Source: Zobellia alginiliquefaciens (lineage in GTDB: Bacteria; Bacteroidota; Bacteroidia; Flavobacteriales; Flavobacteriaceae). From it: 64,000 bases of DNA. Of the stretch, positions 27,149-40,204 are shown in pieces; the stretch's first letter is position 1, and each line of letters opens with the position of its first letter. The translations under genes were made by a program, and so were the position numbers. Location: assembly GCF_029323795.1 (NCBI RefSeq), contig NZ_CP119758.1:1364001-1428000 (forward strand), given 5' to 3'. The notes beneath the pieces were generated by a model. The model was not told where the DNA came from. It saw only the letters and a list, made by a program, of their open reading frames with translations, and did not search any database.

Positions 27149-27814
27149 TTAGAGTCTACCTTGCTTAATAAGCTTAGCAATAAGGTGATGGGTATTTTTA
27201 GCTCCAAAAGCATCAAACAATCTACTGACTTTTTTATCTATAGTACTTTCGCTATTGGGAGAAATATTCTGATTTTTCAATTTTTCGGAAATCTCTTTTT
27301 TCGTGAAACCTTCCGCCAAATCCTGTAAAATCATCAAATCATACTTATCCAACTCAAAAAGAGTATTGGCACTATTTAGATTAATTTGTGGAGAAACGTA
27401 GGTTCTATTTTGATAAACTTCTTGCATAGCGATAACCAGTTCGTTCAACCCGTTACGCCCTTTACAGACGTAACCGTTTATTTTTTGGTCCGTAAAAAGT
27501 GAATTAATTTCCGCAGGGTCTTCAATCATAGAATTCACGATAACCCTAATATTCGGATCTACCTCTCGTATAGCAGCAATAAGAGAATGGCCTGACGTTA
27601 GCTTTCGCTCCACAGGACCTTCCTTAAAAGACAAATCGGTTATTAATAGCTCATAGGGCTCACCATTAATACAAGCCAACTTAAACCTATTATAGGCCTT
27701 ATCACAATACAACTCTTCTTGTATTTCTTCAATTTCCAGTCTATTTTCAAGCGCATTTACAATGCCTTTATTGGTATCTTGAAAGTCTTCTGCAATCAGT
27801 ATTTTTTTGAACAT
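27149..27814 (-). CDS. Response regulator, LuxR/FixJ-like
   Basis: About 221 residues from the ATG ending at 27814 (a GTG at 27823 is an alternative). The receiver domain has ILIAEDF (acidic pocket), LLITDLS with the likely phospho-accepting Asp, VNSM and the conserved Lys in VCKG. The C-terminal helix-turn-helix has YDLMILQDLAEGFTKKEISEKL, STIDKKVSRLFDAFGAKN, a NarL/LuxR-type DNA-binding domain. It follows the histidine kinase by 12 bases and should be its partner. Targets unknown. Confidence 0.88.
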   Translation of the reverse strand: MFKKILIAEDFQDTNKGIVNALENRLEIEEIQEELYCDKAYNRFKLACINGEPYELLITDLSFKEGPVERKLTSGHSLIAAIREVDPNIRVIVNSMIEDPAEINSLFTDQKINGYVCKGRNGLNELVIAMQEVYQNRTYVSPQINLNSANTLFELDKYDLMILQDLAEGFTKKEISEKLKNQNISPNSESTIDKKVSRLFDAFGAKNTHHLIAKLIKQGRL

Positions 27815-27826
27815 AGTCTGCACTAT

Positions 27827-29758
27827 TTAATTCGGAATTTCCACTTGGGCTTTAAAACCTTCGCCCTTCTCAGAATCAAAAGTAAGACTTCCGTTAATGG
27901 CCAGAATACGCTTTTCTGTATTCCATAGTCCATTTTTATTATTTAGGCTACCTTTTGCTGCTCCATTGCCATTATCCACATACTGTATTTTCAACTTGGT
28001 CTTGGTCTGTTCAAAATCTATAGAAACTACCGAAGCCCCACTATGCTTTTGCATATTTATCATAAACTCTTGAAGTACCTTATACAGGGTTTTCTTAGTT
28101 AAATCCGATAAGATGCCCCAATCTACCTCCTTACTTCCGGTAACTAATAGTTGGGTATTTTTACCATAACTGCTTAACATACCAAAAAGTACTTCTTTGA
28201 ATCTTGAGCCGGTATCAACATCATTGATTTTCCTAGAAAAATCCCTACTCTGACTATATAAACCGTCAACAACATTTAAAACCTCTGTAGTATCCGAACC
28301 GTTCTGAAGCAATACCATGGCGTGGTTTAGTTTTCCCGCAAAATCATCATGCAGTTTTCTTGAAAATTCCGCCTCGGTTTCATAGGTGGCTTCTATTTTT
28401 GCCGTTCTGTTCTGCTGTTTCAAACGCCTTGCCCTCTGTATGAAAAAGAATACGCCACAAACAGATATTACCAGAACAAATGCTAAACCTGAGTATGATA
28501 TTATTTTCTGATTGCGCTGTTCGGCAACTTCTAATTGATGTTCCGCATTTTTCTTTTCCAAGCGAAGAATAGATTCTTGCTTAAGCGTATCATCATATCT
28601 ATATTTAGCAAATTGGGTCTTTACTTTTAGTTCTTGATCATACAAACTATCCTGCAAAAAAACATAGCGGTCTTTTACTTCAATATCATTGGGTGCCAGT
28701 TTCATTAGTTGCCGCAATGCATCCTTTTCTGCCCGTGGTATTTTTAAATCATTTGAAAGTTGAATTACAGAATCAAAATAGGATTTTGCTTTTCTTGGAT
28801 TCTCCTTACTATAAAACTCCCCCAAGTGGGTATAACTGGCAATTAGACCTCTTTCATCCTTCGCCTCCATCCTTGTTTTCAATGGTTTCTCAAAAGCATT
28901 GGAACTAATTGATTCTCCTGATAACCATTTTGCATAGGCTAAATTATCTTGAACTCTAGCAAGCTCTTTTGGAGTAGTCTTCATACCTGAAGCTTTCTCT
29001 ATTTTGCTCAAAAGTTCAATAGCTTTACCTAACTCACTATTATCAACATAACTAGCGGCTAAATTGTTTTTGTAAATCAAGCGGCTTTTATCGGAATCCG
29101 TTATACCTATTGCCTTTTGGTAATAATTTACGGCATCTGAAAAATTCAAAAGTTTCCTGTGGTTAGTAGCCAAGGTATTATAGCAATTGGCCCTTTTATC
29201 TGGTTTTTTTAAATACCGCAACGCATCCGTTAGCGTTTCTTTACTGCCGAAGAAGTCATTGTTGTTTTTTTGGATGACACCAATGTTCATTAGGCTTTCA
29301 CCAATTTGACTACTATCGTTAACCTTTGCGAAATACTCTTTGGAATGCGAATAATTTTCGACAGCCTTAAAATAGTCGCGCTCTATTTCAGCAAAATAAT
29401 ATCCCCTTAAATAGTAATGGTCCGCTATCAAATTCGCATTATCTATTTTGGAATTATGACTTAGAAGCAAATCACTAAACAGGATTAGACTATCATATTG
29501 CTGAGCAGTAAAATGAAGCAAACTTTTTTCATCAAGAACATATGCATAAAGTGAATCTTCTACAGTGTCTATCAATTTATCATATGACCTATTTATTGCT
29601 TCCTGTCTCTCTTTCGTTGTAAGTGAAATGTCCTTAGAAACATTAAAATAGAACAAGATACTGTCCAAAGCCTCAACGGAGCGAACATCAGCCCTCTCAT
29701 TCCCTGAAGAACAACAAATTATAAAACAAAAGGAAACCAAAAACAGAAACTTCTTCAC
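27827..29758 (-). CDS. TPR-containing sensor histidine kinase
   Basis: About 643 residues. A short N-terminal hydrophobic segment ending CCSSG suggests a lipoprotein or export signal. Some 300 residues of TPR-like helical repeats follow (YYLRGYYFAEIERDYFKAVENYSHSKEYF and similar), then a membrane helix (IISYSGLAFVLVISVCGVFFFIQ). The cytoplasmic kinase part has EFSRKLHDDFAGKLNHAM with the phospho-His and an HATPase (NMQKHSGA, VDNGNG, GLWN). Start: a GTG at 29797 lies inside the upstream gene's terminator hairpin, so I prefer the GTG ending at 29758 (VKKFLFL). Periplasmic TPR kinases of this form are common in Flavobacteriia; the signal is unknown. Confidence 0.85.
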   Translation of the reverse strand: MKKFLFLVSFCFIICCSSGNERADVRSVEALDSILFYFNVSKDISLTTKERQEAINRSYDKLIDTVEDSLYAYVLDEKSLLHFTAQQYDSLILFSDLLLSHNSKIDNANLIADHYYLRGYYFAEIERDYFKAVENYSHSKEYFAKVNDSSQIGESLMNIGVIQKNNNDFFGSKETLTDALRYLKKPDKRANCYNTLATNHRKLLNFSDAVNYYQKAIGITDSDKSRLIYKNNLAASYVDNSELGKAIELLSKIEKASGMKTTPKELARVQDNLAYAKWLSGESISSNAFEKPLKTRMEAKDERGLIASYTHLGEFYSKENPRKAKSYFDSVIQLSNDLKIPRAEKDALRQLMKLAPNDIEVKDRYVFLQDSLYDQELKVKTQFAKYRYDDTLKQESILRLEKKNAEHQLEVAEQRNQKIISYSGLAFVLVISVCGVFFFIQRARRLKQQNRTAKIEATYETEAEFSRKLHDDFAGKLNHAMVLLQNGSDTTEVLNVVDGLYSQSRDFSRKINDVDTGSRFKEVLFGMLSSYGKNTQLLVTGSKEVDWGILSDLTKKTLYKVLQEFMINMQKHSGASVVSIDFEQTKTKLKIQYVDNGNGAAKGSLNNKNGLWNTEKRILAINGSLTFDSEKGEGFKAQVEIPN

Positions 29759-29786
29759 AAGCAACAGGGAATTGTGAGACTGAATT

Positions 29787-29813
29787 AAAAAAGCCACACA
29801 TTAATGCATGGCT
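29787..29813 (-). terminator. Terminator of the first Nudix regulator gene
   Basis: On the minus strand AGCCA...TGGCT enclose an inner CATTAATG palindrome and are followed by six T. It ends the 29881-30618 transcript and sits just upstream of the kinase gene. Confidence 0.65.
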
Positions 29814-29880: not shown

Positions 29881-30618
29881 TTACATACTGATCAAATAAT
29901 TCTTATTGGAAATTTTATCATACACGTCCTTACTGAACATATATAACTGAGCTGGCTTTTTTGAAACACCAACTTGCTTTTCATCCAAAGCAATTATATA
30001 CTTTCTACTGATTAACTTTCTTCTAAAATTACGGTTATCAATTTCAACACCTAATATAGATTGATAGAGATCCTGTACATCATTCATGGTGAATTTTAAG
30101 GGCAACAATTCAAAAGTTATAGGCTCGGACAAGCATTTAGCCTTTAGGTCTTCATGAGCTTCCTCAATAATTTTCTTATGGTCAAACCCTAGTTTTGGCA
30201 ATTCCCCTAGAGGAAACCATTTTGCCTTATGCCTATTAGCCTTTAAATCAACATCATTGGTTTTCAACAAAAAATAATAGGCTACGGTAAAAGTCCTTGA
30301 GCTAAATTTCTTGCTCTTAACCCAAATTTGGTCTGACTTCCCCATTAGCCGGTCAGGAGCTCCAAATACCTTAAATTGCTTCTTATACAAATTGGTTAGA
30401 CCGGTTAGCTCTTTTAATACCCTAGCAGAGGCTTCATCTAGAGTTTCATGCTCATACACATGGTAACCGGTCAATACATAATCATCCACAAGGACATTAG
30501 ATTTTGCCTCGGACTCCAGATACCGCTTTATCAATAGAACATTAAGCGATTTTGCCTTAATGTCGTATCCAAAAACTACACAATCCACAGATACATTCAA
30601 GATTTCCTTAGCCTTCAT
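29881..30618 (-). CDS. Nudix-fold winged-helix transcription regulator (NrtR/AraR type), copy A
   Basis: 245 residues. Residues 1-150 follow the Nudix fold (VSVDCVVFGYD, NVLLIKR, DDYVLTGYHVYEHETLDEASARVLKELTGL), but the catalytic Nudix box is degenerate: the G-x5-E glutamate is His and REUxEE has become RVLKEL. Hydrolase activity is therefore unlikely. The C-terminal 90 residues (LPLKFTMNDVQDLYQSILGVEIDNRNFRRKL, AQLYMFSKDVYDKI) are the winged helix seen in NrtR-like regulators, some of which control sugar genes in Bacteroidota. It is divergent from the mannitol operon and has a clear paralogue at 39479. Best guess: the mannitol-operon regulator. Confidence 0.85.
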   Translation of the reverse strand: MKAKEILNVSVDCVVFGYDIKAKSLNVLLIKRYLESEAKSNVLVDDYVLTGYHVYEHETLDEASARVLKELTGLTNLYKKQFKVFGAPDRLMGKSDQIWVKSKKFSSRTFTVAYYFLLKTNDVDLKANRHKAKWFPLGELPKLGFDHKKIIEEAHEDLKAKCLSEPITFELLPLKFTMNDVQDLYQSILGVEIDNRNFRRKLISRKYIIALDEKQVGVSKKPAQLYMFSKDVYDKISNKNYLISM

Positions 30619-30817
30619 AAATCTATTTTACATACAAAACTAAACAAATAAGCTCTTTAAATTAAAATTAAACGTCCTTTTGACATTATTAATAAAAATT
30701 CACTAATCCCTAATATTACAAAGCAATAAAAGGTAATTTCACATATATTACGGGTAAAATATCACATTTTTTATGTTAATTAATTTGGTAAGTAAAAAAA
30801 TAAAGTTTTCATTTGTC

Positions 30818-30844
30818 TAATAAACGTTAATATGACGTTTATTA
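30818..30844. promoter_or_regulatory. Perfect inverted repeat, candidate operator of the mannitol operon
   Basis: TAATAAACGT (30818-30827), 7 nt, ACGTTTATTA (30835-30844). The arms are exact reverse complements. It lies in the 251-base gap between the divergent Nudix regulator and the outer-membrane barrel gene, 25 bases before the latter's ATG. That position suits repression of the operon. The binding protein is inferred from adjacency only. Confidence 0.6.
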
Positions 30845-30869
30845 ATTATCAACCTATAACCATCTTGTT

Positions 30870-31766
30870 ATGAAACAAATGCTATCCATTTTACAAACTA
30901 GAATCGGTTTTACTTTGAAAAATTCAAATCATAAAAAACTAGAGCAATTTAACAGAGCTTCTTTTATGCTAGCCCTACCATTAATTCTCTTCTTTGGAAT
31001 CAATTTTGGGTTAGCTCAGGACGATAACAAGGATAAAGACCGCTACAAACCTTTTAACACTGGCGGCCACTTAAAGAACATGCATATATGGCATGGCTTT
31101 GTTGTACATCCAGGAGCTATGTTCGCCACCCATTTAGAATATAATTCAAAAAATGAAAAATTTACACTTGGCGTCTGGGGCGGTGCCGGATTCACCACTA
31201 CCGATGTAATCCATAAGGATTCCGGACAAAACGTAAGGGCCAACTACAAAGAAGTTTCCATATATGCCCTCTATCGTCTTTCCGATAGATTTTTTGCCGA
31301 AGCCGTATCCCACAACAATTACACCGGGGTGGAAGAAAGAGGCGACAAACTAAACTATTGGAGCTATGACAAAACACAGGGATACAATTTTGTGGATATC
31401 AACTTTGGCTACAATGTTACCCCAAACACCCTTCTATATTTAGCCACCATTATAGGTGGTGGTTCTGGAGATTACGAAATCCGACCCGATGGTTCTCTAA
31501 AAAATTCATGGACCCATTATTTTGAAGTGAAAAGCAAGGTGTGGAAAATTGACAATTACGAACTATCCCTATTTGCCGGTGGTGCATGGTCCTTCTTAAC
31601 GGACAAAACATTCTACACCCAAGACAAAGCAAATGTTATTAACGTAGGATTGGCACTGAACAAGAATATTACTGTAGCCAACTACGAATTGCCTGTTGAA
31701 GTTACAGCCATGTGGAACCCCGAGAAGCGAGCAACGGTGTTATCGCTAGATTTTTCTTTATTTTAA
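30870..31766 (+). CDS. Outer-membrane beta-barrel protein, putative polyol porin
   Basis: 298 residues. After a somewhat long export signal (hydrophobic LALPLILFFGINFGLA, cut near AQD) the protein is a series of amphipathic beta strands ending in aromatic LSLDFSLF, as expected for a 10-12-strand outer-membrane barrel. I do not recognise a named family. The gene opens the mannitol operon: 38 bases before the binding-protein ATG and directly after the inverted repeat. A porin for mannitol or related polyols is the natural inference, since an ABC system needs an outer-membrane route. Confidence 0.72.
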   Translation: MKQMLSILQTRIGFTLKNSNHKKLEQFNRASFMLALPLILFFGINFGLAQDDNKDKDRYKPFNTGGHLKNMHIWHGFVVHPGAMFATHLEYNSKNEKFTLGVWGGAGFTTTDVIHKDSGQNVRANYKEVSIYALYRLSDRFFAEAVSHNNYTGVEERGDKLNYWSYDKTQGYNFVDINFGYNVTPNTLLYLATIIGGGSGDYEIRPDGSLKNSWTHYFEVKSKVWKIDNYELSLFAGGAWSFLTDKTFYTQDKANVINVGLALNKNITVANYELPVEVTAMWNPEKRATVLSLDFSLF

Positions 31767-31804
31767 CAAAACCCGAACATAAATAACAGCTAATAGTATT
31801 GATT

Positions 31805-32860
31805 ATGAAAAACGTAAATTCAGCTTTAAAGAAAATCCTTGGCCCATTCGTGGTGGTCACATTACTATTTATGAGCAGTTGTGCCAGACAGTTAGAAACA
31901 AGCAAAGCCTCCAACAGTCTAACCGAAGATACAGAGGAGAGTTTTGTAAGCAAAATAGATCTTTCAGGCAAAAGAATAGGCTATTGCACCCCGTCATTGA
32001 ACGCACCCTACTACCAAGCGCTATTCCAGAGCATTAAGTCCACTACCGAAAATAATGGCATGACCTTCTTATCTGCAGATGGCCAAAATGATATTAACAA
32101 ACAAATTGCAGCGGTTGAGGATCTAATCACAAAAGGTATTGATGCCCTGCTCCTTAACCCGCTAGATCCTGATGCCCTGGTTGGGGTTACCAAAGTCGCT
32201 AAAGCCGCCGGTGTTCCGGTATTCATTATAGACAGTTCTATTGACCCATCGGCAGATTTTGTTACTACCATTCAATCTAACAACTTAGCAAACGGGGAAC
32301 TTGCCGGAGAATGGCTAGCCAAAAAATTCGGCAAAGAAAAAATGAATATTGCCCTATTAAGTGGTAATGCCGGAAACCCTGTAGGCAAAACGCGGAAACA
32401 AGGGCTTTTACAGGGCATTACGGAAGAACAATTAAGAACGTTGGGCTATATTGATTTGAACATTAAAACCCAAATGTATACCAACTGGTCCTATGCCGGC
32501 GGACTAAAGGCCATGGAAGATGTTTTGGTAGCACACCCAGATGTAAACGTAGTCATTACCGAATCGGATGTTTGTGTACTGGGAGCCATAAAGGCAATTG
32601 CCCAGGCGGGTAAAACAGATGATATTTTGATCGTTGCCGGTGCGGACGGACAAAAAGAAGCCATAAAGTACATTATGGAAACAGATTTCTACGGGTGTAC
32701 CGCCATGAACAGTCCGGTACAGATAGGAAAAAATGCCGTTCAGTATGCAATTGAATACATGAACGGAAAAACAGATTTCCCAAAAAACTCATACACTGCA
32801 CCTTTACTGATCACAAAGGAAAATGCGGCAAAATACTACAGGCCAGATGCTATATTTTAA
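31805..32860 (+). CDS. ABC transporter substrate-binding lipoprotein (ribose/polyol type)
   Basis: 352 residues from the ATG at 31805. The signal ends in FMSSC, a lipobox, so it is a membrane-anchored binding protein. The body is the periplasmic-binding-protein type 1 fold: IGYCTPSLNAPYYQALFQSI, DALLLNPLDPDALVGV, VFIIDSSIDPSADFVTTIQSNN, NIALLSGNAGNPVGKTRKQG, VVITESDVCVLGAI, IVAGADGQKEAIKYI. These are the sugar-contacting segments of RbsB-like proteins. Followed 39 bases later by the ATPase. By gene order it matches the mannitol ABC operon known from Zobellia galactanivorans. Confidence 0.92.
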   Translation: MKNVNSALKKILGPFVVVTLLFMSSCARQLETSKASNSLTEDTEESFVSKIDLSGKRIGYCTPSLNAPYYQALFQSIKSTTENNGMTFLSADGQNDINKQIAAVEDLITKGIDALLLNPLDPDALVGVTKVAKAAGVPVFIIDSSIDPSADFVTTIQSNNLANGELAGEWLAKKFGKEKMNIALLSGNAGNPVGKTRKQGLLQGITEEQLRTLGYIDLNIKTQMYTNWSYAGGLKAMEDVLVAHPDVNVVITESDVCVLGAIKAIAQAGKTDDILIVAGADGQKEAIKYIMETDFYGCTAMNSPVQIGKNAVQYAIEYMNGKTDFPKNSYTAPLLITKENAAKYYRPDAIF

Positions 32861-32899
32861 AGGGAATCCGCAACACTTATTAATCAAACCTTGTTAGAC

Positions 32900-34432
32900 A
32901 TGAAAACTGAAAATAGCGCATACCGAGTTGAAATGACCGGAATATCTAAAAGCTTTGGAGTGGTTTCTGTACTTGAAGGTGTAAATCTTAAAGTAAAACC
33001 CGGAGAAATTCATGCATTACTTGGCGAGAATGGCGCGGGCAAATCTACGCTGGTAAAAATCCTTAGCGGTGTACATCAAAAAGATGGTGGAAAAATCTTG
33101 CTGAACGGCGAAGAACTTAACCTAAAAAACACACACGAAGGTCAGGTAAAAGGTATTAGTGTCGTCTACCAAGAACTCTCACTGGTAAACGATCTATCCG
33201 TTGCCGAAAATATCTACTTGCACAAACTTGGCGCAAATAAGTTCTGGATGAACTGGAAAAAAATTACCAAAGACGCACAAGAGCTTATAGATTCTTTGGG
33301 CTTTAAGATTGATGCATCGGCGCGAGTCAGAGATTTAAGTATTGTCCAAAAACAAGTAGTAGAAATTGCCAAGGCCTTATCGGAAGATACAAAAGTACTC
33401 GTACTGGATGAGCCCACTACCGTTTTTGATCCTACGGACACACAAAAGTTATTTGACAATTTGTTCAGGTTAAAGGAAAAAGGCATTTCCATTATTTACA
33501 TCTCTCACCATTTAGAGGAAATATTTAAGATAGCAGATTCCATAACCGTTCTTAGAGATGGTGTAGACACAGGTTGCTTACCCGTTTCCGAGACCGACAC
33601 GGATAGTGTTATTCGATTAATGATCGGTAGGGAACTAAAGGATCTGTACCCCGAACGTAATGCAAAAATAGGGTCAAAACCTGTTTTTGAAGTCAAGAAC
33701 CTAACGGCTAAGAACAACTTGGTTCACGATGTGTCATTTTCCGTAAAACCTGGTGAAGTTCTTGGCGTAGCAGGGTTAGGAGGCAGCGGAAGGACAGAAA
33801 CAGCAAAATTGATTTTTGGTGCCGATAAAAAGAAATCCGGAACCTTGACCCTAAACGGAAAAGAGATTAAAACTAAATCGCCCGTTGATGCCGTAAAACA
33901 TCAAATAGGCTTTGTATCTGAAGATCGCAAGGAAGAAGGTGTCTTTTTGCCTCTTTCCATTCGAAAGAACATTAGCATTACCAATTTTAGATCTATTTCC
34001 AGTAAACTGGGTTTCTTAAAGACAGAAAAAGAGCAAGAAAACGTATCTGCATTAATTAACAAGCTAAATATTAAGACCCCTAGCTCAGAAGTAGATGTAG
34101 GCAACTTAAGTGGCGGCAACCAGCAAAAAGTGGCTTTGGCCAAATGGCTTAGCATAGACAGCAAAGTAATTATAATTGACGAACCTACACGCGGGGTAGA
34201 CGTTGGTGCCAAAGTTGAAATCTATAATCTCATAAACGAAGTTGCCCAGAAAGGTGTTGCCGTTGTGGTCATTTCTTCCGATATGCCCGAAATAATGGGT
34301 ATTTCGGACCGAATCCTGGTTATGCACAAGGGCACCTTCTACGGCGAGTTGACCAAAGAGCAATTTTCCGAAGAAAACATACTACGCTACTCCATTGGAA
34401 AAGCATTAAAAACATCATCATCCAACCATTAA
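32900..34432 (+). CDS. ABC transporter ATPase, RbsA type (two nucleotide-binding domains)
   Basis: 510 residues from the ATG at 32900. The first ABC domain has Walker A GENGAGKST (42-50), a signature-like LSIVQKQ and Walker B LVLDEPTT. The second (from about 260) has a degenerate Walker A (GLGGSGRTE), signature LSGGNQQKV and IIDEPTRGVDVG, as in RbsA, AraG and XylG. It drives sugar or polyol import with the flanking binding protein and permease, 12 bases before the permease. Confidence 0.95.
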   Translation: MKTENSAYRVEMTGISKSFGVVSVLEGVNLKVKPGEIHALLGENGAGKSTLVKILSGVHQKDGGKILLNGEELNLKNTHEGQVKGISVVYQELSLVNDLSVAENIYLHKLGANKFWMNWKKITKDAQELIDSLGFKIDASARVRDLSIVQKQVVEIAKALSEDTKVLVLDEPTTVFDPTDTQKLFDNLFRLKEKGISIIYISHHLEEIFKIADSITVLRDGVDTGCLPVSETDTDSVIRLMIGRELKDLYPERNAKIGSKPVFEVKNLTAKNNLVHDVSFSVKPGEVLGVAGLGGSGRTETAKLIFGADKKKSGTLTLNGKEIKTKSPVDAVKHQIGFVSEDRKEEGVFLPLSIRKNISITNFRSISSKLGFLKTEKEQENVSALINKLNIKTPSSEVDVGNLSGGNQQKVALAKWLSIDSKVIIIDEPTRGVDVGAKVEIYNLINEVAQKGVAVVVISSDMPEIMGISDRILVMHKGTFYGELTKEQFSEENILRYSIGKALKTSSSNH

Positions 34433-34444
34433 AAAAATTAGATC

Positions 34445-35413
34445 ATGGCCTTAACAATAAAACAACAACTTAGTAGTCCAGGAGGATTCCTTAAGTTTCT
34501 GATCAAACACAACACCATCTTCATTTTCATCGTACTAGTGCTGTTTTCTGCAATGATTTCAGATGTGTTCTTTACATCGGTAAATCTGTCCAATTTACTA
34601 AAACAGGTTTCCGGTATTGGTATTATAAGTATTGGAATGTTAATAGTAATCCTAACCGGTGGAATAGACCTTTCTGTTGGTTCCATGGTAGCCTTGTTGG
34701 CCGTTACTTTCGCAATTTTAGTGAATACATTTGCCTTGCCCCTAGCCATTCTACTGACCATTATAATCGGGTTTTCACTGGGAAGCGTAGCTGGTTATCT
34801 TGTAGCCTATCAAAAAATGGCACCCTTTATTGCCACACTTGCCCTAATGACTATTGCAAGAGGCTTGGGCTTTATCTATTCAAAAGGTTCCCCTATCACC
34901 TTCACCACTTACGGAGGATTGTACATGTCCGACTTTGCTAATAATTCAACCTTGGGCATACCTAACATTTCTATCGTGTTTTTTATCATTGTTATCTGTG
35001 CGATGGCAATGCTACGCTACAATGTATTTGGGAGATTGATTATAGCCATAGGAAGCAACGAGGAGGCCTCTAGACTATCGGGCATTAAAGTAAACAAATA
35101 CAAGTTTTTGGTCTATGCAATTTCTGGGGCTTTGGCCGCAACTGCCGCTATCATTGTTGCCTCCAGAACAAATTTGGGATCACCTAATATGGGCATGGCT
35201 TGGGAACTTGACGCTATTGCCGCAGTAGTAATTGGAGGCGCAAGCTTAAATGGAGGAAAAGGAACCGCTATAAACACCTTAATGGGCGTTCTTATTTTAG
35301 GCTTGATAAGCAACATCCTAAATCTACTTAACGTACCCTCCTACCCGCAACAAGTGGTGAAAGGTGCCATAATCATCTTTGCCGTTCTCTTACAAAAATT
35401 CGAGAGCAAATAA
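34445..35413 (+). CDS. ABC transporter permease, RbsC type
   Basis: 322 residues with about eight to ten hydrophobic helices and the family motifs GGIDLSVGSM, RYNVFGRLIIAIGSNEEASRLSGIKV and LGSPNMGMAWELDAIAAVVIGGASLNGGKG. It would form the homodimeric inner-membrane channel of the polyol importer. 24 bases separate it from the dehydrogenase gene, so one transcript is likely. Confidence 0.95.
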   Translation: MALTIKQQLSSPGGFLKFLIKHNTIFIFIVLVLFSAMISDVFFTSVNLSNLLKQVSGIGIISIGMLIVILTGGIDLSVGSMVALLAVTFAILVNTFALPLAILLTIIIGFSLGSVAGYLVAYQKMAPFIATLALMTIARGLGFIYSKGSPITFTTYGGLYMSDFANNSTLGIPNISIVFFIIVICAMAMLRYNVFGRLIIAIGSNEEASRLSGIKVNKYKFLVYAISGALAATAAIIVASRTNLGSPNMGMAWELDAIAAVVIGGASLNGGKGTAINTLMGVLILGLISNILNLLNVPSYPQQVVKGAIIIFAVLLQKFESK

Positions 35414-35437
35414 CTTAAAAACATAACGTTACATATT

Positions 35438-36934
35438 ATGACTAGCTATAAATTAAACAACAAAAACCTCAGCAAGTTTTCAGATGAGGCCCTTATTCCC
35501 CAGTATGATAGATCTGCCTTAAAAACAGGTATCGTCCATGTGGGCATAGGGGGGTTCCACCGATCTCATGAAGCCTATTATACCAATCAATTATTACATG
35601 ACCCAGCCAATTCGGATTGGGGCATTTGTGGCATTGCCCTATTGGATTTTGACACAAAAATTTACAATACCCTTAAAGAGCAAGACGGATTGTACACCCT
35701 TATTGTGAAGGAATTGGACGGCACCTTGACCAAAAAAATCATAGGCTCTATTGTAGAATACCTTTTTGCTCCGGAGAATCCAACACAGGTAATAGAGAAA
35801 ATGGCGAGTACCGATGTTAAGATCATAACCCTGACCATTACGGAAGGTGGCTATAACTACAACGAAGCCACGGGTTCTTTTGACTTTACAAATCCCCTAG
35901 TTCAACAGGACTTAGAGCACCCACAAGCTCCCAAAACAATTTTTGGTTATTTGACCCAAGCATTAAAACTCCGAAAAGAAAGAGGATTGCCCGGGTGCAC
36001 CATTCAGTCTTGCGATAACATTCAGGGAAATGGACATATGACGGAAAGGATGTTATTGAGTTTTGTACATATGGCCGAACCGGATCTCGTACCCTGGATA
36101 AAATCAAATGTATCCTTCCCTAATGCTATGGTAGATAGAATCACTCCCGCCACATCAGAAAAGGATATTACCCTATTAAAAGATACCAGCGGAATTGAAG
36201 ATGCATGGCCCGTAGTTTGTGAGCCTTTTAAACAATGGGTCATAGAAGATGATTTTATCTCAGGAAGACCTGCTTGGGAAAATGTAGGAGCTCAATTTGT
36301 AGAAGATGTAGTTCCTTATGAAAAAATGAAGCTTAGCCTATTAAATGCAGGACATTCCGTTTTGGGAATCCTTGGCGCTCTAATAGGCTATGAAACTATT
36401 GACGAATCTGTTCAGAACAAGGCTATACAAACCTTTTTACACTCCTACATGGATGAAGAGGTGAGCCCTACTTTAGGTGATTTAGAAGGTGTTGACTTGA
36501 AAAAGTATAAACAGTCACTGCTTCAAAGATTTGGAAATATTTACATCAAAGATCAAATAGACAGAATATGTTCTGAGAGTTCCGCTAAAATTCCCATTTT
36601 CATTTTACCCACGGTAAACGCACAATTAGAAAATGACGGCCCTATTGAACATGCGGCTTTTGTAATTGCAGCCTGGGCCATCTACAGTGCCGGTGTTGAC
36701 GAGCAGGGAAACCCCTTAAATATTAAAGATGCCCTAGAATCCCTATTAAAAGAAAAAGCTCTGGTTGCCAAAGACAGTCCCGCATCTTTTTTAGAAATAG
36801 AATCCGTTTTCGGGAAGCTGAATCAATCCAAAAGATTTGTTGATTCTTATTCAGCGGCATATCAAAACATTCTAAAATACGGTGTAGAAGAATGTGTAAC
36901 CCAAATGAACAATAAGGCTATAAATAATATTTAA
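35438..36934 (+). CDS. Mannitol 2-dehydrogenase (copy 1, operon)
   Basis: 498 residues, long-chain mannitol dehydrogenase family; oxidises D-mannitol to D-fructose with NAD. Motifs are HVGIGGFHRSHEAYY near the N-terminus, SCDNIQGNGHMT, PNAMVDRITP, VCEPFKQWVIEDDF and the catalytic set Lys298, Asn303, His306 in KLSLLNAGHSVLG. The fructokinase ATG follows the stop codon directly, which implies translational coupling. The order ABC transporter - dehydrogenase - fructokinase is that of the characterised Zobellia mannitol operon. A paralogue of similar length is at 37830 on the other strand. Confidence 0.93.
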   Translation: MTSYKLNNKNLSKFSDEALIPQYDRSALKTGIVHVGIGGFHRSHEAYYTNQLLHDPANSDWGICGIALLDFDTKIYNTLKEQDGLYTLIVKELDGTLTKKIIGSIVEYLFAPENPTQVIEKMASTDVKIITLTITEGGYNYNEATGSFDFTNPLVQQDLEHPQAPKTIFGYLTQALKLRKERGLPGCTIQSCDNIQGNGHMTERMLLSFVHMAEPDLVPWIKSNVSFPNAMVDRITPATSEKDITLLKDTSGIEDAWPVVCEPFKQWVIEDDFISGRPAWENVGAQFVEDVVPYEKMKLSLLNAGHSVLGILGALIGYETIDESVQNKAIQTFLHSYMDEEVSPTLGDLEGVDLKKYKQSLLQRFGNIYIKDQIDRICSESSAKIPIFILPTVNAQLENDGPIEHAAFVIAAWAIYSAGVDEQGNPLNIKDALESLLKEKALVAKDSPASFLEIESVFGKLNQSKRFVDSYSAAYQNILKYGVEECVTQMNNKAINNI

Positions 36935-37822
36935 ATGAAAAATATAGTTTGTTTTGGAGAAGTTCTATGGGACGTATTCCCTACCCATAAAAAAATTGGA
37001 GGAGCGCCTTTGAACGTTGCAGCACGTTTACAATCATTAGAAAACAGGGTAAGTCTGATCAGCAAGGTAGGAAATGATGGGGCCGGTAGGGAAATAATTG
37101 AATTCCTTAACAAACAGGGTATCAACACCCAAAGCGTAAAAGTGGATTCTACTCTAAAAACCGGAGATGTAAAAGTTACTTTGAACGACAAAGGTTCCGC
37201 CTCATATATTATAGAGTCTCCTAGAGCTTGGGACCATATTGAACTTACCCCAGATGCTGTAGACATCACTCAAACTTCGGATGTCTTTATATATGGAAGT
37301 TTGGCCGCAAGAAACCACACCTCTAAGAATACACTACATGAGCTTTTAAAACTGGCCAAGTATAAAATTTTTGATGTTAATCTTAGAGCTCCGCATTACA
37401 CTATACATGTTTTGTCCGAACTCATGGATGCTGCCGACTTTATAAAGTTTAATGACGATGAAATTTTAGAAATAGCAAAAGCCCTAGATTTTGAATCCGA
37501 GTCTCTGGAAGAAAATATCAAATTTATAGCGAAGTATACCAATACAACATCTATTTGTGTTACAAGGGGCGGTAATGGCGCCATACTCTATTGTAATCAT
37601 TTATTTTATTACAACAACGGCTATCCAATAACAGTTGTGGACACTGTTGGTGCAGGAGATTCTTTTTTGGCATCTCTGATCAACAAAATCCTTAAGGGTG
37701 CTTCCCCTCAAAATGCCCTTGATTTTTCTTGCGCCATGGGTGCAATTGTAGCCAGTAACCAAGGGGCAAACCCAAAAATAGAGAAAGCTACTATTGATAA
37801 AATGATGTATGTACAACCATAG
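36935..37822 (+). CDS. Fructokinase (PfkB family)
   Basis: 295 residues. The PfkB carbohydrate-kinase signatures are GEVLWDVFP...GGAPLNVAARL near the N-terminus and TVGAGDSFLASL (around 236-247, catalytic Asp in GAGDS). It would phosphorylate the fructose made by the preceding dehydrogenase to fructose 6-phosphate. The ATG abuts the upstream stop. It ends 7 bases from the convergent second dehydrogenase. Confidence 0.93.
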   Translation: MKNIVCFGEVLWDVFPTHKKIGGAPLNVAARLQSLENRVSLISKVGNDGAGREIIEFLNKQGINTQSVKVDSTLKTGDVKVTLNDKGSASYIIESPRAWDHIELTPDAVDITQTSDVFIYGSLAARNHTSKNTLHELLKLAKYKIFDVNLRAPHYTIHVLSELMDAADFIKFNDDEILEIAKALDFESESLEENIKFIAKYTNTTSICVTRGGNGAILYCNHLFYYNNGYPITVVDTVGAGDSFLASLINKILKGASPQNALDFSCAMGAIVASNQGANPKIEKATIDKMMYVQP

Positions 37823-37829
37823 AGATATG

Positions 37830-39320
37830 CTATAACAGACCAGAATTAAAATCTTTTATACACTCTTTAATCGTGCGCGTTCTAATATAATTTAGATAGC
37901 GCACGTACTTTTCCACAAAAATTGGACTGCTTTTTAAATCGCCAAAAACAGATTCAATTTCTAAAAACCTAATCGGATTCTGCTGAGACTGAGTGGCCCT
38001 TCTAATCAGAACATTACTTATAGAGTCTGAAATTTTATATGTTTTACCTTGATCATCCAAACCATCATAATATGTACACCATGCGGCAATAACAAAAGCA
38101 GCCCTGTCTATAACCTTGTCTTTTGACAACTGTGTCCGCACCGTCGGCAAAATAAAAATTGGGACTTTTGCAGAGCTTTCATCGCAAATCCTGGAAAGGC
38201 TATCATAGATATAAGGGTTCTTAAATCTAGCAATCAAAGTAGACTTATAATTTTCTACCAAATGAACCTCGGCCTTATCCAGAACAGGAATGACCTCTGC
38301 ATCCATAAAAGTTCTCAGGAAATACATAAAGTCTTCATCGTTTGCAGCCTCACCTACGGTTTTATATCCGTGAAGCGTACCCAAGATACCCAATAGGGTA
38401 TGTCCCGCATTGAGCAACTGAAGTTTCATTTTATCATAAAACTCAATATGCTCCACAAACTGTACACCTACCTTTTCCCACTGTGGCCTTCCGTGAAAAA
38501 AATTATCCTCGATCACCCAGTTCGCAAAAGGCTCGCATACCACTGGCCATTGGTCCTCAATTAAAAAGTCGTTTTTTAAAGTTTCAATGTCTTCCGGGCG
38601 GGTTAGCGGTGTAATCCGATCCACCATTGAATTTGGAAACGTAGTGTTCTCCTTTAGCCACGGCAGCAATTCGGGCTCCATCTTATTTACGTAGTTGAAA
38701 AAAGAAGCTTTCATCGTATCTCCGTTGCCTTTTATATTGTCACATGATAGAATGGTACAACCTGCTAGACCTCGGAACTTCCTCAACTTAAAGGCTTGCA
38801 TCAAATATCCAAAAACGGTTTTTGGATAAAAGGGGTTTCTCATATCTTCGGCAACAACCGGATTCTCCTGATCAAACTCTCCTGTTATCTCGTTTAAGTG
38901 ATATCCGTCTTCGGCAATGGTCAACGAAATTATCTCGATATCCGGATGAGCAAGTCTTTCAATGACCGCCATGGGATTTTCAGGACCAAAAAAGTACTCT
39001 ACAATAGAGCCTATAACTTTTATTTGATGGGAACCATTGGCATCTTTCACCATCAAGCAATACAGCCCATCTTGATCTTTTAGAACATTATAAATTTTTC
39101 GGTCTGCATCCAAAAGGTCTATTCCGCATATACCAAAATTAAATTCATCATGATTTTCTATCAGCTCGTGCATATAATATGCCTGATGCGCTCTATGAAA
39201 ATTGCTTATCCCAATATGTGCAATACTTGTTTTAATTTTATCTCGATCAAATGCAGGAATCAACGCCCTATTCTGTAGCGCGCCTACATTCTCAATATTT
39301 AAGTATAATGGGTTTTGCAT
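37830..39320 (-). CDS. Mannitol dehydrogenase family protein (copy 2, divergent from regulator B)
   Basis: 496 residues, paralogue of the operon enzyme over its full length. It keeps HIGISNFHRAHQAYY, SCDNIKGNGDTM, PNSMVDRITP and catalytic Lys299, Asn304, His307 in KLQLLNAGHTLLG, so it should be active. Differences near the entrance (SNFHRAHQ versus GGFHRSHE, KFRGLAG versus RERGLPG) could change polyol choice, for example arabitol or sorbitol; that is a guess. It is convergent with the fructokinase and divergent from the second Nudix regulator at 39479. Confidence 0.9.
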   Translation of the reverse strand: MQNPLYLNIENVGALQNRALIPAFDRDKIKTSIAHIGISNFHRAHQAYYMHELIENHDEFNFGICGIDLLDADRKIYNVLKDQDGLYCLMVKDANGSHQIKVIGSIVEYFFGPENPMAVIERLAHPDIEIISLTIAEDGYHLNEITGEFDQENPVVAEDMRNPFYPKTVFGYLMQAFKLRKFRGLAGCTILSCDNIKGNGDTMKASFFNYVNKMEPELLPWLKENTTFPNSMVDRITPLTRPEDIETLKNDFLIEDQWPVVCEPFANWVIEDNFFHGRPQWEKVGVQFVEHIEFYDKMKLQLLNAGHTLLGILGTLHGYKTVGEAANDEDFMYFLRTFMDAEVIPVLDKAEVHLVENYKSTLIARFKNPYIYDSLSRICDESSAKVPIFILPTVRTQLSKDKVIDRAAFVIAAWCTYYDGLDDQGKTYKISDSISNVLIRRATQSQQNPIRFLEIESVFGDLKSSPIFVEKYVRYLNYIRTRTIKECIKDFNSGLL

Positions 39321-39367
39321 ATTTTTTTTACAATATAGAATCAGTATCCAAAATCTTTCAATTTACA

Positions 39368-39397
39368 TAAAAAATAAAATTATATCTATATTTTTTA
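39368..39397. promoter_or_regulatory. AT-only inverted repeat in the second divergent promoter region
   Basis: TAAAAAATA (39368-39376) and TATTTTTTA (39389-39397) are exact reverse complements 12 nt apart, between copy 2 of the dehydrogenase and regulator B. The position suits an operator, but AT-only repeats are easily found by chance in such DNA. Confidence 0.3.
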
Positions 39398-39478
39398 AGT
39401 GTTCATTGTATATTGACGAAATAGAACTTCATGCTCCGGCAAACGAGTTTAAACCAAAGATAAGAGAGCTGTATTTAA

Positions 39479-40204
39479 ATGGATTTTAGAAAACTGGATA
39501 ACGTATCTGTCAATTGTGTCATTTTTGGCTTAGGCCCAGAAGGTTTGTATGTTCTTTTGCAAAAACGTACGCTAAATATGTTCCGAAAAGAGTACCCGGT
39601 AATTGATGACTGGGTTATAACAGGAGAACGTGCTTTCACAAACAAAACTTTAGAGGAATCTGCCAACAGTATCTTTAAAAGCATAACCAACCTTAACGAA
39701 TTCAACAGGGTTCAGTTTCACACCTACGGCAATACCTCTAGAATCAAAACCGACAAAGATTTATTATGGACCAAAAGCAAAGGACTAAAGGCACAATCCA
39801 TGACCATTGCGTATTATTTTGTACAGCCTAAAAAGAACATTCAATTAACCGATGATGACTTTAAGTGGTTTCCCGTAAAAGCTTTGCCGGAATTGGGTTT
39901 TGACCACAAAAAAATAATTGATGACGCTCAGGAAGATTTGAAGCAAAAAATCATGGTTGAGCCTATAATATTTGATTTGATATCGCATAAGTTTACGTTA
40001 AATGAACTTCAAATTGCTTTTGAGTCTGTCCTGAACATTGAAATTGACAACCGAAATTTCCGAAAAAAAGTACTGAAGAAAATTTATATTGTTCCTTTGA
40101 ACGAAACCAGAAAGGGCAATGCAAAAAAACCTTCTAAGCTCTATGTTTTTAGCCGAGATGTGTATAATAAAGTAACGGAGAAAGACCTCATCATAAATAT
40201 TTAA
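39479..40204 (+). CDS. Nudix-fold winged-helix transcription regulator (NrtR/AraR type), copy B
   Basis: 241 residues, plain paralogue of the regulator at 29881 (shared VSVxCVxFG, LPxLGFDHKKIIxxAxEDLK, IEIDNRNFRxK, KxPxxLYxFSxDVYxK). The Nudix box is even more decayed (GERAFTNKTLEESANSIFKSITNL), so it is a sensor rather than an enzyme. It starts 158 bases from, and divergent to, the second mannitol-dehydrogenase gene, mirroring copy A with the ABC operon. Effector unknown. Confidence 0.85.
   Translation: MDFRKLDNVSVNCVIFGLGPEGLYVLLQKRTLNMFRKEYPVIDDWVITGERAFTNKTLEESANSIFKSITNLNEFNRVQFHTYGNTSRIKTDKDLLWTKSKGLKAQSMTIAYYFVQPKKNIQLTDDDFKWFPVKALPELGFDHKKIIDDAQEDLKQKIMVEPIIFDLISHKFTLNELQIAFESVLNIEIDNRNFRKKVLKKIYIVPLNETRKGNAKKPSKLYVFSRDVYNKVTEKDLIINI

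Follow-up and report, generated by a model that had tools for sequence, protein, structure and literature searches.

The 64,000-nucleotide stretch of the Zobellia alginiliquefaciens genome analyzed here (hereafter the window; bases 1,364,001-1,428,000 of a single contig of 5,066,785 bases) contains a mannitol-type catabolic operon enclosed by genes for two paralogous regulators, regA and regB, the second of which diverges from the gene for an additional mannitol-type dehydrogenase, MDH2. We propose, with a probability of roughly 0.7, that RegA and RegB are two interchangeable repressors that converge on a single operator switch of the mannitol operon, since relatives keep only regA or only regB while the operator stays the same. 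Comparison of gene order across the Flavobacteriaceae, the check put forward together with an earlier, sequence-only reading of this DNA, shows the operon and its operator preserved under A alone, B alone or both. The palindrome AAACGT-N7-ACGTTT lies upstream of the operon in all 31 loci scanned, perfect in 29 of them and with one mismatch in two (L096 and L015). This proximal site, O1, accompanies regA only in 16 loci, regB or a B-like regulator only in 9 and 2 loci, respectively, and both regulators in 4.

The 31 loci comprise operons with an ATP-binding cassette (ABC) transporter (4 with both regulators, 9 with regB only and 14 with regA only) and operons with an NCS1-like transporter (2 with regA and 2 with a B-like regulator). 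Loci L007, L008 and L009 were left out of the count because they come from the same genomes as L085, L084 and L083. Three further loci were left out: L123, which ends with its contig so that the operon is not on the piece, and which has no site with up to 2 mismatches, and the regA loci L124 and L125, each of which has two sites, with 1 and 2 mismatches, respectively. The features of the locus in the window are:

29881-30618, minus strand: regA, NrtR/AraR-type Nudix-like winged-helix regulator of the A clade (Pfam PF21906, PF19368 and PF00293; tree; BtAraR 5bs6, E 2.8e-36)
30670-30688, strandless: O2, distal operator AAACGTCCTTTTGACATTA, 2 mismatches, 152 bp from O1
30808-30815, plus strand: promoter -7-like element TTCATTTG, one base off TAnnTTTG, 6 bp before O1
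30822-30840, strandless: O1, proximal operator AAACGT-TAATATG-ACGTTT, the sole perfect match in the 5.07-Mb genome
30870-31766, plus strand: predicted outer-membrane beta-barrel protein, first gene of the operon (from reading the sequence, in the earlier reading and here)
31799-32860, plus strand: sugar-binding protein of the ABC transporter (Peripla_BP_4, E 2.2e-53), by our reading a lipoprotein
32891-34432, plus strand: sugar ABC ATPase with duplicated domain (ABC_tran in 2 stretches; xylose/ribose ATPase models of NCBIfam below their cut-offs)
34445-35413, plus strand: ABC permease (BPD_transp_2, E 1.8e-43; best models ribose/arabinose permease, below NCBIfam cut-offs)
35438-36934, plus strand: MDH1, mannitol 2-dehydrogenase-type enzyme (PF01232/PF08125; 1lj8, E 4e-136; catalytic residues kept)
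36935-37822, plus strand: PfkB-family sugar kinase, probably a fructokinase (PF00294, E 2.8e-43; NCBIfam kinase models below cut-off)
37830-39320, minus strand: MDH2, second dehydrogenase with a remodelled coenzyme-binding loop (Mannitol_dh and Mannitol_dh_C; residue comparison; tree)
39321-39478, strandless: MDH2/regB intergenic region with the blocks AATTTACATAAAAAA and TTCATTGTATATT, nearly common with Algibacter-type loci
39479-40204, plus strand: regB, NrtR/AraR-type regulator of the B clade (PF21906 and PF19368; 5bs6, E 1.1e-21; structure model)

All genes lie where the sequence-only reading had placed them and on the strands it had given, their Pfam domains agree with it, and the two divergent arrangements it described, regA against the barrel-ABC operon and regB against MDH2, are real. 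Its description of a mannitol/polyol locus with two paralogous Nudix-winged-helix regulators is likewise upheld as far as the domains and the 42% identity of the regulators are concerned, the mannitol assignment itself being a prediction from sequence. The barrel protein has no match in Pfam or NCBIfam; its gene stands first in all 27 ABC-type loci, the window included, and may encode a dedicated porin. A two-component system (by reading, a histidine kinase of the tetratricopeptide-repeat type and a response regulator) at 27149-29797 adjoins regA and is found beside the same locus in Zobellia relatives.

Operators and promoter of the mannitol operon

TAnnTTTG is the -7 promoter element of Bacteroidetes. 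In 26 of the 31 loci an exact copy stands no more than 15 bp upstream of O1, and in 19 of these at 6 bp; the background frequency is 1.3%, as counted on random 23-bp stretches taken from the loci. The five loci without an exact copy are the five Zobellia loci with MDH2, each of them one base off. A second copy of the operator with up to 2 mismatches, O2, is found 141-179 bp upstream of O1 in 26/31 loci when 130-190 bp are searched; the chance expectation is about 0.006 per locus, as calculated from 55 sites in 527,183 bases of loci, with the caveat that the A+T content of promoters exceeds that of whole loci. O2 is perfect in three regB-only genomes (G352, G377 and G203) and in one genome with both regulators (G003). 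Because it persists in 8 of the 9 regB-only ABC loci that lack an adjoining regA, O2 probably has a use beyond the promoter of regA itself. We make no claim of strict helical phasing between O1 and O2, given the spread of their spacings.

Sites of this kind give no sign of a wider regulon in the genome of Z. alginiliquefaciens: 23 sites with up to 1 mismatch were found against 28 for the reversed control pattern, which is no enrichment, and of the 15 among these 23 that were examined, 13 lie inside reading frames of at least 90 codons, the other two being O1 and a site at 1,153,613. L106 and L107, two control loci with a related dehydrogenase and neither regulator adjoining, lack any site with up to 1 mismatch; a 2-mismatch site lies within the piece of L106. 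Nor was any site with up to 1 mismatch found in 14 loci of the distant dehydrogenase group, within the approximately 1.5 kb covered on each side. A variant cassette, in which an NCS1-like transporter of about 570 residues (by reading) replaces the barrel and the ABC transporter before the dehydrogenase and fructokinase genes, carries the same operator; it stands under a B-like regulator in L012 (5287-10726) and L013 (5486-10738), and under regA in L095 (2219-7356) and L097 (2801-8043).

In the mechanism that we favor, the operon would serve the uptake and catabolism of mannitol, the presumed substrate, by means of an outer-membrane barrel, a binding protein, an ABC transporter, a mannitol 2-dehydrogenase and a fructokinase. 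Without inducer, dimers of RegA and/or RegB would occupy O1, over the transcription start, as well as O2, and keep the operon low; O1, just behind the promoter, would exert repression, and O2, about 150 bp upstream, would assist, possibly through a loop. A sugar or polyol released by mannitol uptake would loosen the repressors, as L-arabinose does in the case of AraR. A and B would thus be old, distantly related NrtR/AraR-type repressors that read the same AAACGT-N7-ACGTTT, and lineages would have swapped or lost either of them. As both are kept in this Zobellia, the operon probably responds to two ligands through a single switch, and simultaneous use of both repressors would allow it to be controlled by two signals.

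Family, DNA contacts and ligand pockets of RegA and RegB

Both regulators carry a winged-helix domain behind a Nudix-like domain and belong to the NrtR/AraR type; Pfam lists NrtR_WHD and AraR_C on both, and the NUDIX model (PF00293) on RegA only. The structure model of RegB (mean pLDDT 78.1) matches AraR (5bs6, Foldseek E 2.5e-20), and its match to AraR/NrtR structures extends over almost the whole length of RegB. Judged by eye, the Nudix hydrolase motif is impaired, with the REUxEE stretch reading RVLKEL in A and SIFKSI in B; according to the sections used here of the AraR study (PMC4666351), this motif is broken in AraR too. The model for NtrR/NrtR regulators of NAD metabolism (NF050029) scores 74.9 and 47.9 bits, against a curated 400 bits. 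The closest solved relative of A and B is BtAraR, the L-arabinose repressor of Bacteroides thetaiotaomicron from the NrtR family, which has the same Nudix-like plus winged-helix architecture and resembles them in the R34, R86 and H131 positions, the recognition residues R180/N181 and half-sites 7 bp apart; AraR can also use two sites (PMC4666351, same sections). On the other hand, its operator is GTGT-N7-ACAC rather than the ACGT-N7-ACGT found here, A and B have a 13-residue insert after Arg86, and the target of the present regulators is a mannitol-type operon.

The residues that would contact DNA argue for a common operator. R180, N181, R183 and K204 are identical in all 37 A, B and B-like rows, and all 37 have N in place of K179. 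In AraR this lysine touches the first G of GTGT (PMC4666351, Table 2), and the full set of DNA-contacting residues is K179, R180, N181, K184, K204 and R205; with N179 and the site ACGT-N7-ACGT, A and B depart from AraR in both contact residues and operator. If the half-sites are paired by their spacing, which is 7 in both systems, the replacement of K179 by N would match the change of the half-site from GTGT to ACGT, and an N179 common to A and B is what one would expect if both regulators read the same operator.

The ligand pockets agree with that of AraR in part. R34, R86 and H131, the residues that form hydrogen bonds with the sugar in AraR, are kept in all 22 A rows; among the 15 B and B-like rows, none lacks R34 or H131, and 13 have R86. 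The rest of the arabinose pocket (Y5, F36, F49 and V92) does not follow AraR: F36 is L in 37/37 rows, V92 is T or S in 35/37, and Y5 is not aligned. At the position of Phe49, His is found in 22/22 A rows and Arg (7) or Tyr (5) in the 12 core B rows, the remaining 3 B and B-like rows having His (2) or Gln (1). As the three hydrogen-bonding residues are retained and the other pocket residues changed, RegA and RegB probably both bind a sugar or polyol, which can hardly be L-arabinose, and perhaps not the same one. The genome holds one more protein of the NrtR/AraR family, 34% identical to RegB (L003, genome positions 1,622,436-1,623,065); it keeps K179, R34, F36, F49 and H131 as in AraR and is probably AraR-type. 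Its gene adjoins one that reads like an FGGY-type sugar kinase.

The two dehydrogenases and the distribution of the locus

MDH1 and MDH2 share 53% identity, and both carry the Pfam domains Mannitol_dh and Mannitol_dh_C. There is no other close copy in the genome, only one dehydrogenase 27% identical to MDH1. Their closest solved relative is 1lj8, which we take to be the mannitol 2-dehydrogenase of Pseudomonas fluorescens. N191, D230, K295, N300, H303, R373 and K381, to which we assign catalytic or substrate-binding roles by analogy to that enzyme, are common to all three proteins and kept in 12/12 MDH2 rows, and by domains as well as by these residues MDH1 and MDH2 both belong to the mannitol 2-dehydrogenase type (polyol-specific long-chain dehydrogenases), oxidation of mannitol to fructose being a predicted activity, least certainly so for MDH2. 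MDH2 is set apart by several changes, some of them in the coenzyme loop: G35 is replaced by S or T and G36 by N, D or S in 12/12 rows, and T132A and G134D are found in 12/12 each. Compared with the P. fluorescens enzyme, MDH2 of the window carries S and N in place of G35 and G36, alanine for T132 and aspartate for G134. The change at G36 is already present in two Ancylomarina-type dehydrogenases. These counts leave out L017, which is near-identical to MDH2 of the window, and include the distant-group row L029 in the MDH1 column, the MDH2 counts being unaffected. We do not infer a loss of NAD binding, since all 12 MDH2 rows retain D69 and E133; the structure model of MDH2 (mean pLDDT 67.9) is too poor for use. 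Most likely, to judge from these residues, MDH2 is functional as a polyol dehydrogenase, with an altered use of coenzyme or an altered substrate. It is possible that MDH2 and regB serve a second polyol, as the sequence-only reading had suggested.

Among 397 Flavobacteriaceae genomes, 21 carry regA and/or regB at E<=1e-40: 1 has both (that of the window), 14 have regA only and 6 regB only; among 395 genomes across the phylum, 6 match, all of them within the Flavobacteriaceae. MDH2 (at least 60% identity) occurs in 7 of the 397, the same 7 that have regB, always alongside MDH1. A directed search found no regA orthologue in any of seven regB-only genomes (G007, G183, G364, G352, G399, G203 and G377); the genomes of L010, L011, L012 and L013 lay outside this search. 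At E<=1e-10, regB is the sole family match in G352, G203 and G377. RegA is the sole family match in 8 of the 14 regA-only genomes (G021, G093, G198, G233, G271, G308, G323 and G374), and is not the sole one in 6 (G009, G149, G375, G412, G005 and G008).

The best named relatives of RegB are those of Z. russellii (94% identity), Z. amurskyensis (85%) and Z. barbeyronii (80%), and the genes flanking it there are the same to the left and to the right. In nine Zobellia genomes (E<=1e-60), MDH1 and MDH2 occur together in five (G000, G002, G003, G004 and G007), MDH1 without MDH2 in G005 and G008, and only a distant dehydrogenase in G001 and G006. A further mannitol-type dehydrogenase, 43-45% identical to MDH2, is encoded elsewhere in the genomes of G001, G006, G002 and G003 (L028, L029, L035 and L036); in G001 and G006 no other such dehydrogenase passed the threshold applied. 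Z. galactanivorans reportedly utilizes mannitol by an ABC transporter, a mannitol 2-dehydrogenase and a fructokinase, as work by Groisillier et al. in 2015 is said to have described, and all three are present in the window too. The match of the operon to this system, claimed in the sequence-only reading, holds for the operon itself: the genus-mate G005 has the same operon in a regA-type version, with an MDH1 75% identical to that of the window. The match does not extend to MDH2 and regB, neither of which was found in G005, and none of the flanking genes of the window was found within 15 kb around the G005 locus.

All genes of the locus are open, and within Zobellia they look constrained. The ratio of nonsynonymous to synonymous substitution rates (dN/dS) is 0.071 for regA (one usable pair), 0.046-0.067 for regB, 0.044-0.069 for MDH1 and 0.036-0.068 for MDH2, all rough estimates with many dS values >1; by this measure MDH2 looks as constrained as MDH1.

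Evolutionary history and alternative explanations

The mirror-like layout and the paralogy of its parts had suggested to the sequence-only reading a duplication of a regulator-dehydrogenase module. A recent local duplication followed by divergence is, however, extremely improbable and was rejected on the basis of both trees. One clade unites the 22 regA rows (97/100) and another the 13 core regB rows (100/97), and both span genera. The 13 MDH2 rows form a clade of their own (100/100), apart from the local MDH1; this MDH2 clade groups with the dehydrogenases of Ancylomarina and strain Ap0902 (100/99, midpoint root). With clades that span genera, the trees indicate that MDH2-regB is an old linked pair and not a copy made in this lineage. 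The tree of the five shared operon proteins calls for 4 changes of the regB-only label, of which supported branches force at least 3, and for 4 of the regA-only label, with at least 2 forced. On this evidence, repeated exchange or loss of regulators has taken place on one and the same operon. This tree was built by a quick method with SH-aLRT values only, and with its midpoint root and weak deep forks it sets no order of events between A and B.

The divergent gene pairs, the different residues at the Phe49 position in A and core B, and the finding of MDH2 only next to regB would also fit a division of roles, in which regA governs the ABC operon and regB governs MDH2 and itself, each in response to its own polyol. 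We consider this unlikely. The operator is found in front of the ABC operon under either regulator. In nine cases, an ABC operon with a perfect O1 has regB but no regA next to it, and none was found elsewhere in the 7 of these genomes that were searched. In the gap between MDH2 and regB, AAACGT-N7-ACGTTT was not found with up to 4 mismatches in the window, with up to 3 in the five Zobellia loci, or with up to 2 in Zobellia and Algibacter-type loci. None of 13 such intergenic regions contains a perfect operator, the best being 1-mismatch sites beside regB in G352, G377 and G203. The claim that each regulator rules its own unit is therefore not borne out by the DNA, and it appears that regB does not act on MDH2 by way of this operator. 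A point in favor of the shared switch is the regB-side operator AAAGCGTAAATT[TC]AACGTTT, which is common to G352, G377 and Ancylomarina, where it precedes the B-like regulator, and is found in G203 too. The AATTTACATAAAAAA and TTCATTGTATATT blocks are nearly alike in the MDH2/regB gaps of Zobellia and Algibacter-type loci, though the AAACGT operator is absent there. A further idea, in which A and B with their different pockets make the one operator pair a two-input gate, and MDH2 serves mainly to make or remove the ligand of RegB rather than contributing to bulk catabolism, is a speculative one to which we give a small chance. Smaller still is the chance that A or B no longer matters in Zobellia and that the locus is in a state of transitional redundancy towards loss. 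The two regulators were seen together only in four Zobellia genomes, other lineages keeping one, and in Z. russellii (L085) all that is left at the place of regA is a short stretch similar to its start, with O1 and O2 kept, so that regA seems to have been lost there; yet both genes appear constrained within Zobellia by the dN/dS values given above, rough as these are with dS mostly >1.

Several observations weigh against the shared switch that we prefer. The 31 loci are related and do not represent independent events, and one of the forced changes of the regB-only label is the loss of regA in Z. russellii. O2 with up to 2 mismatches is missing in L011, L094, L104, L012 and L013; in regA-bearing loci it lies 27-80 bp from the start of regA and may simply be regA's own operator there, and in G352, G399, G377 and G203 another divergent gene (by reading, threonyl-tRNA synthetase-like) starts further upstream. 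A and B differ at positions 184 (R versus K), 200 and 208, so their affinities for the operator may differ. The regulators of Ancylomarina (L012; 54% identity to B and 52% to A) and strain Ap0902 (L013; 52% to B and 43% to A) are B-like by identity and K184 only and have no settled place in the regulator tree, in which L013 and L003 are flagged for their long branches. None of the nine locus proteins reaches a curated NCBIfam cut-off, so the mannitol assignment draws on family membership, gene order and the work reported on Z. galactanivorans; the use of the operator by RegA and RegB, and repression by them, are predictions from comparison of sequences.

Marine flavobacteria break down mannitol. 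It is a storage carbohydrate of brown algae, as described in the portion used here of PMC9296495. At the level of titles and the openings of abstracts, with most subscription papers outside that scope, the literature searched names no regulator of this mannitol operon. The locus offers a concrete operator, a promoter position and two candidate repressors. It also belongs to a natural series for the study of regulator replacement, in which the same operator pair stands under A, B or both, even within one genus, and which includes the apparent loss of regA in Z. russellii.

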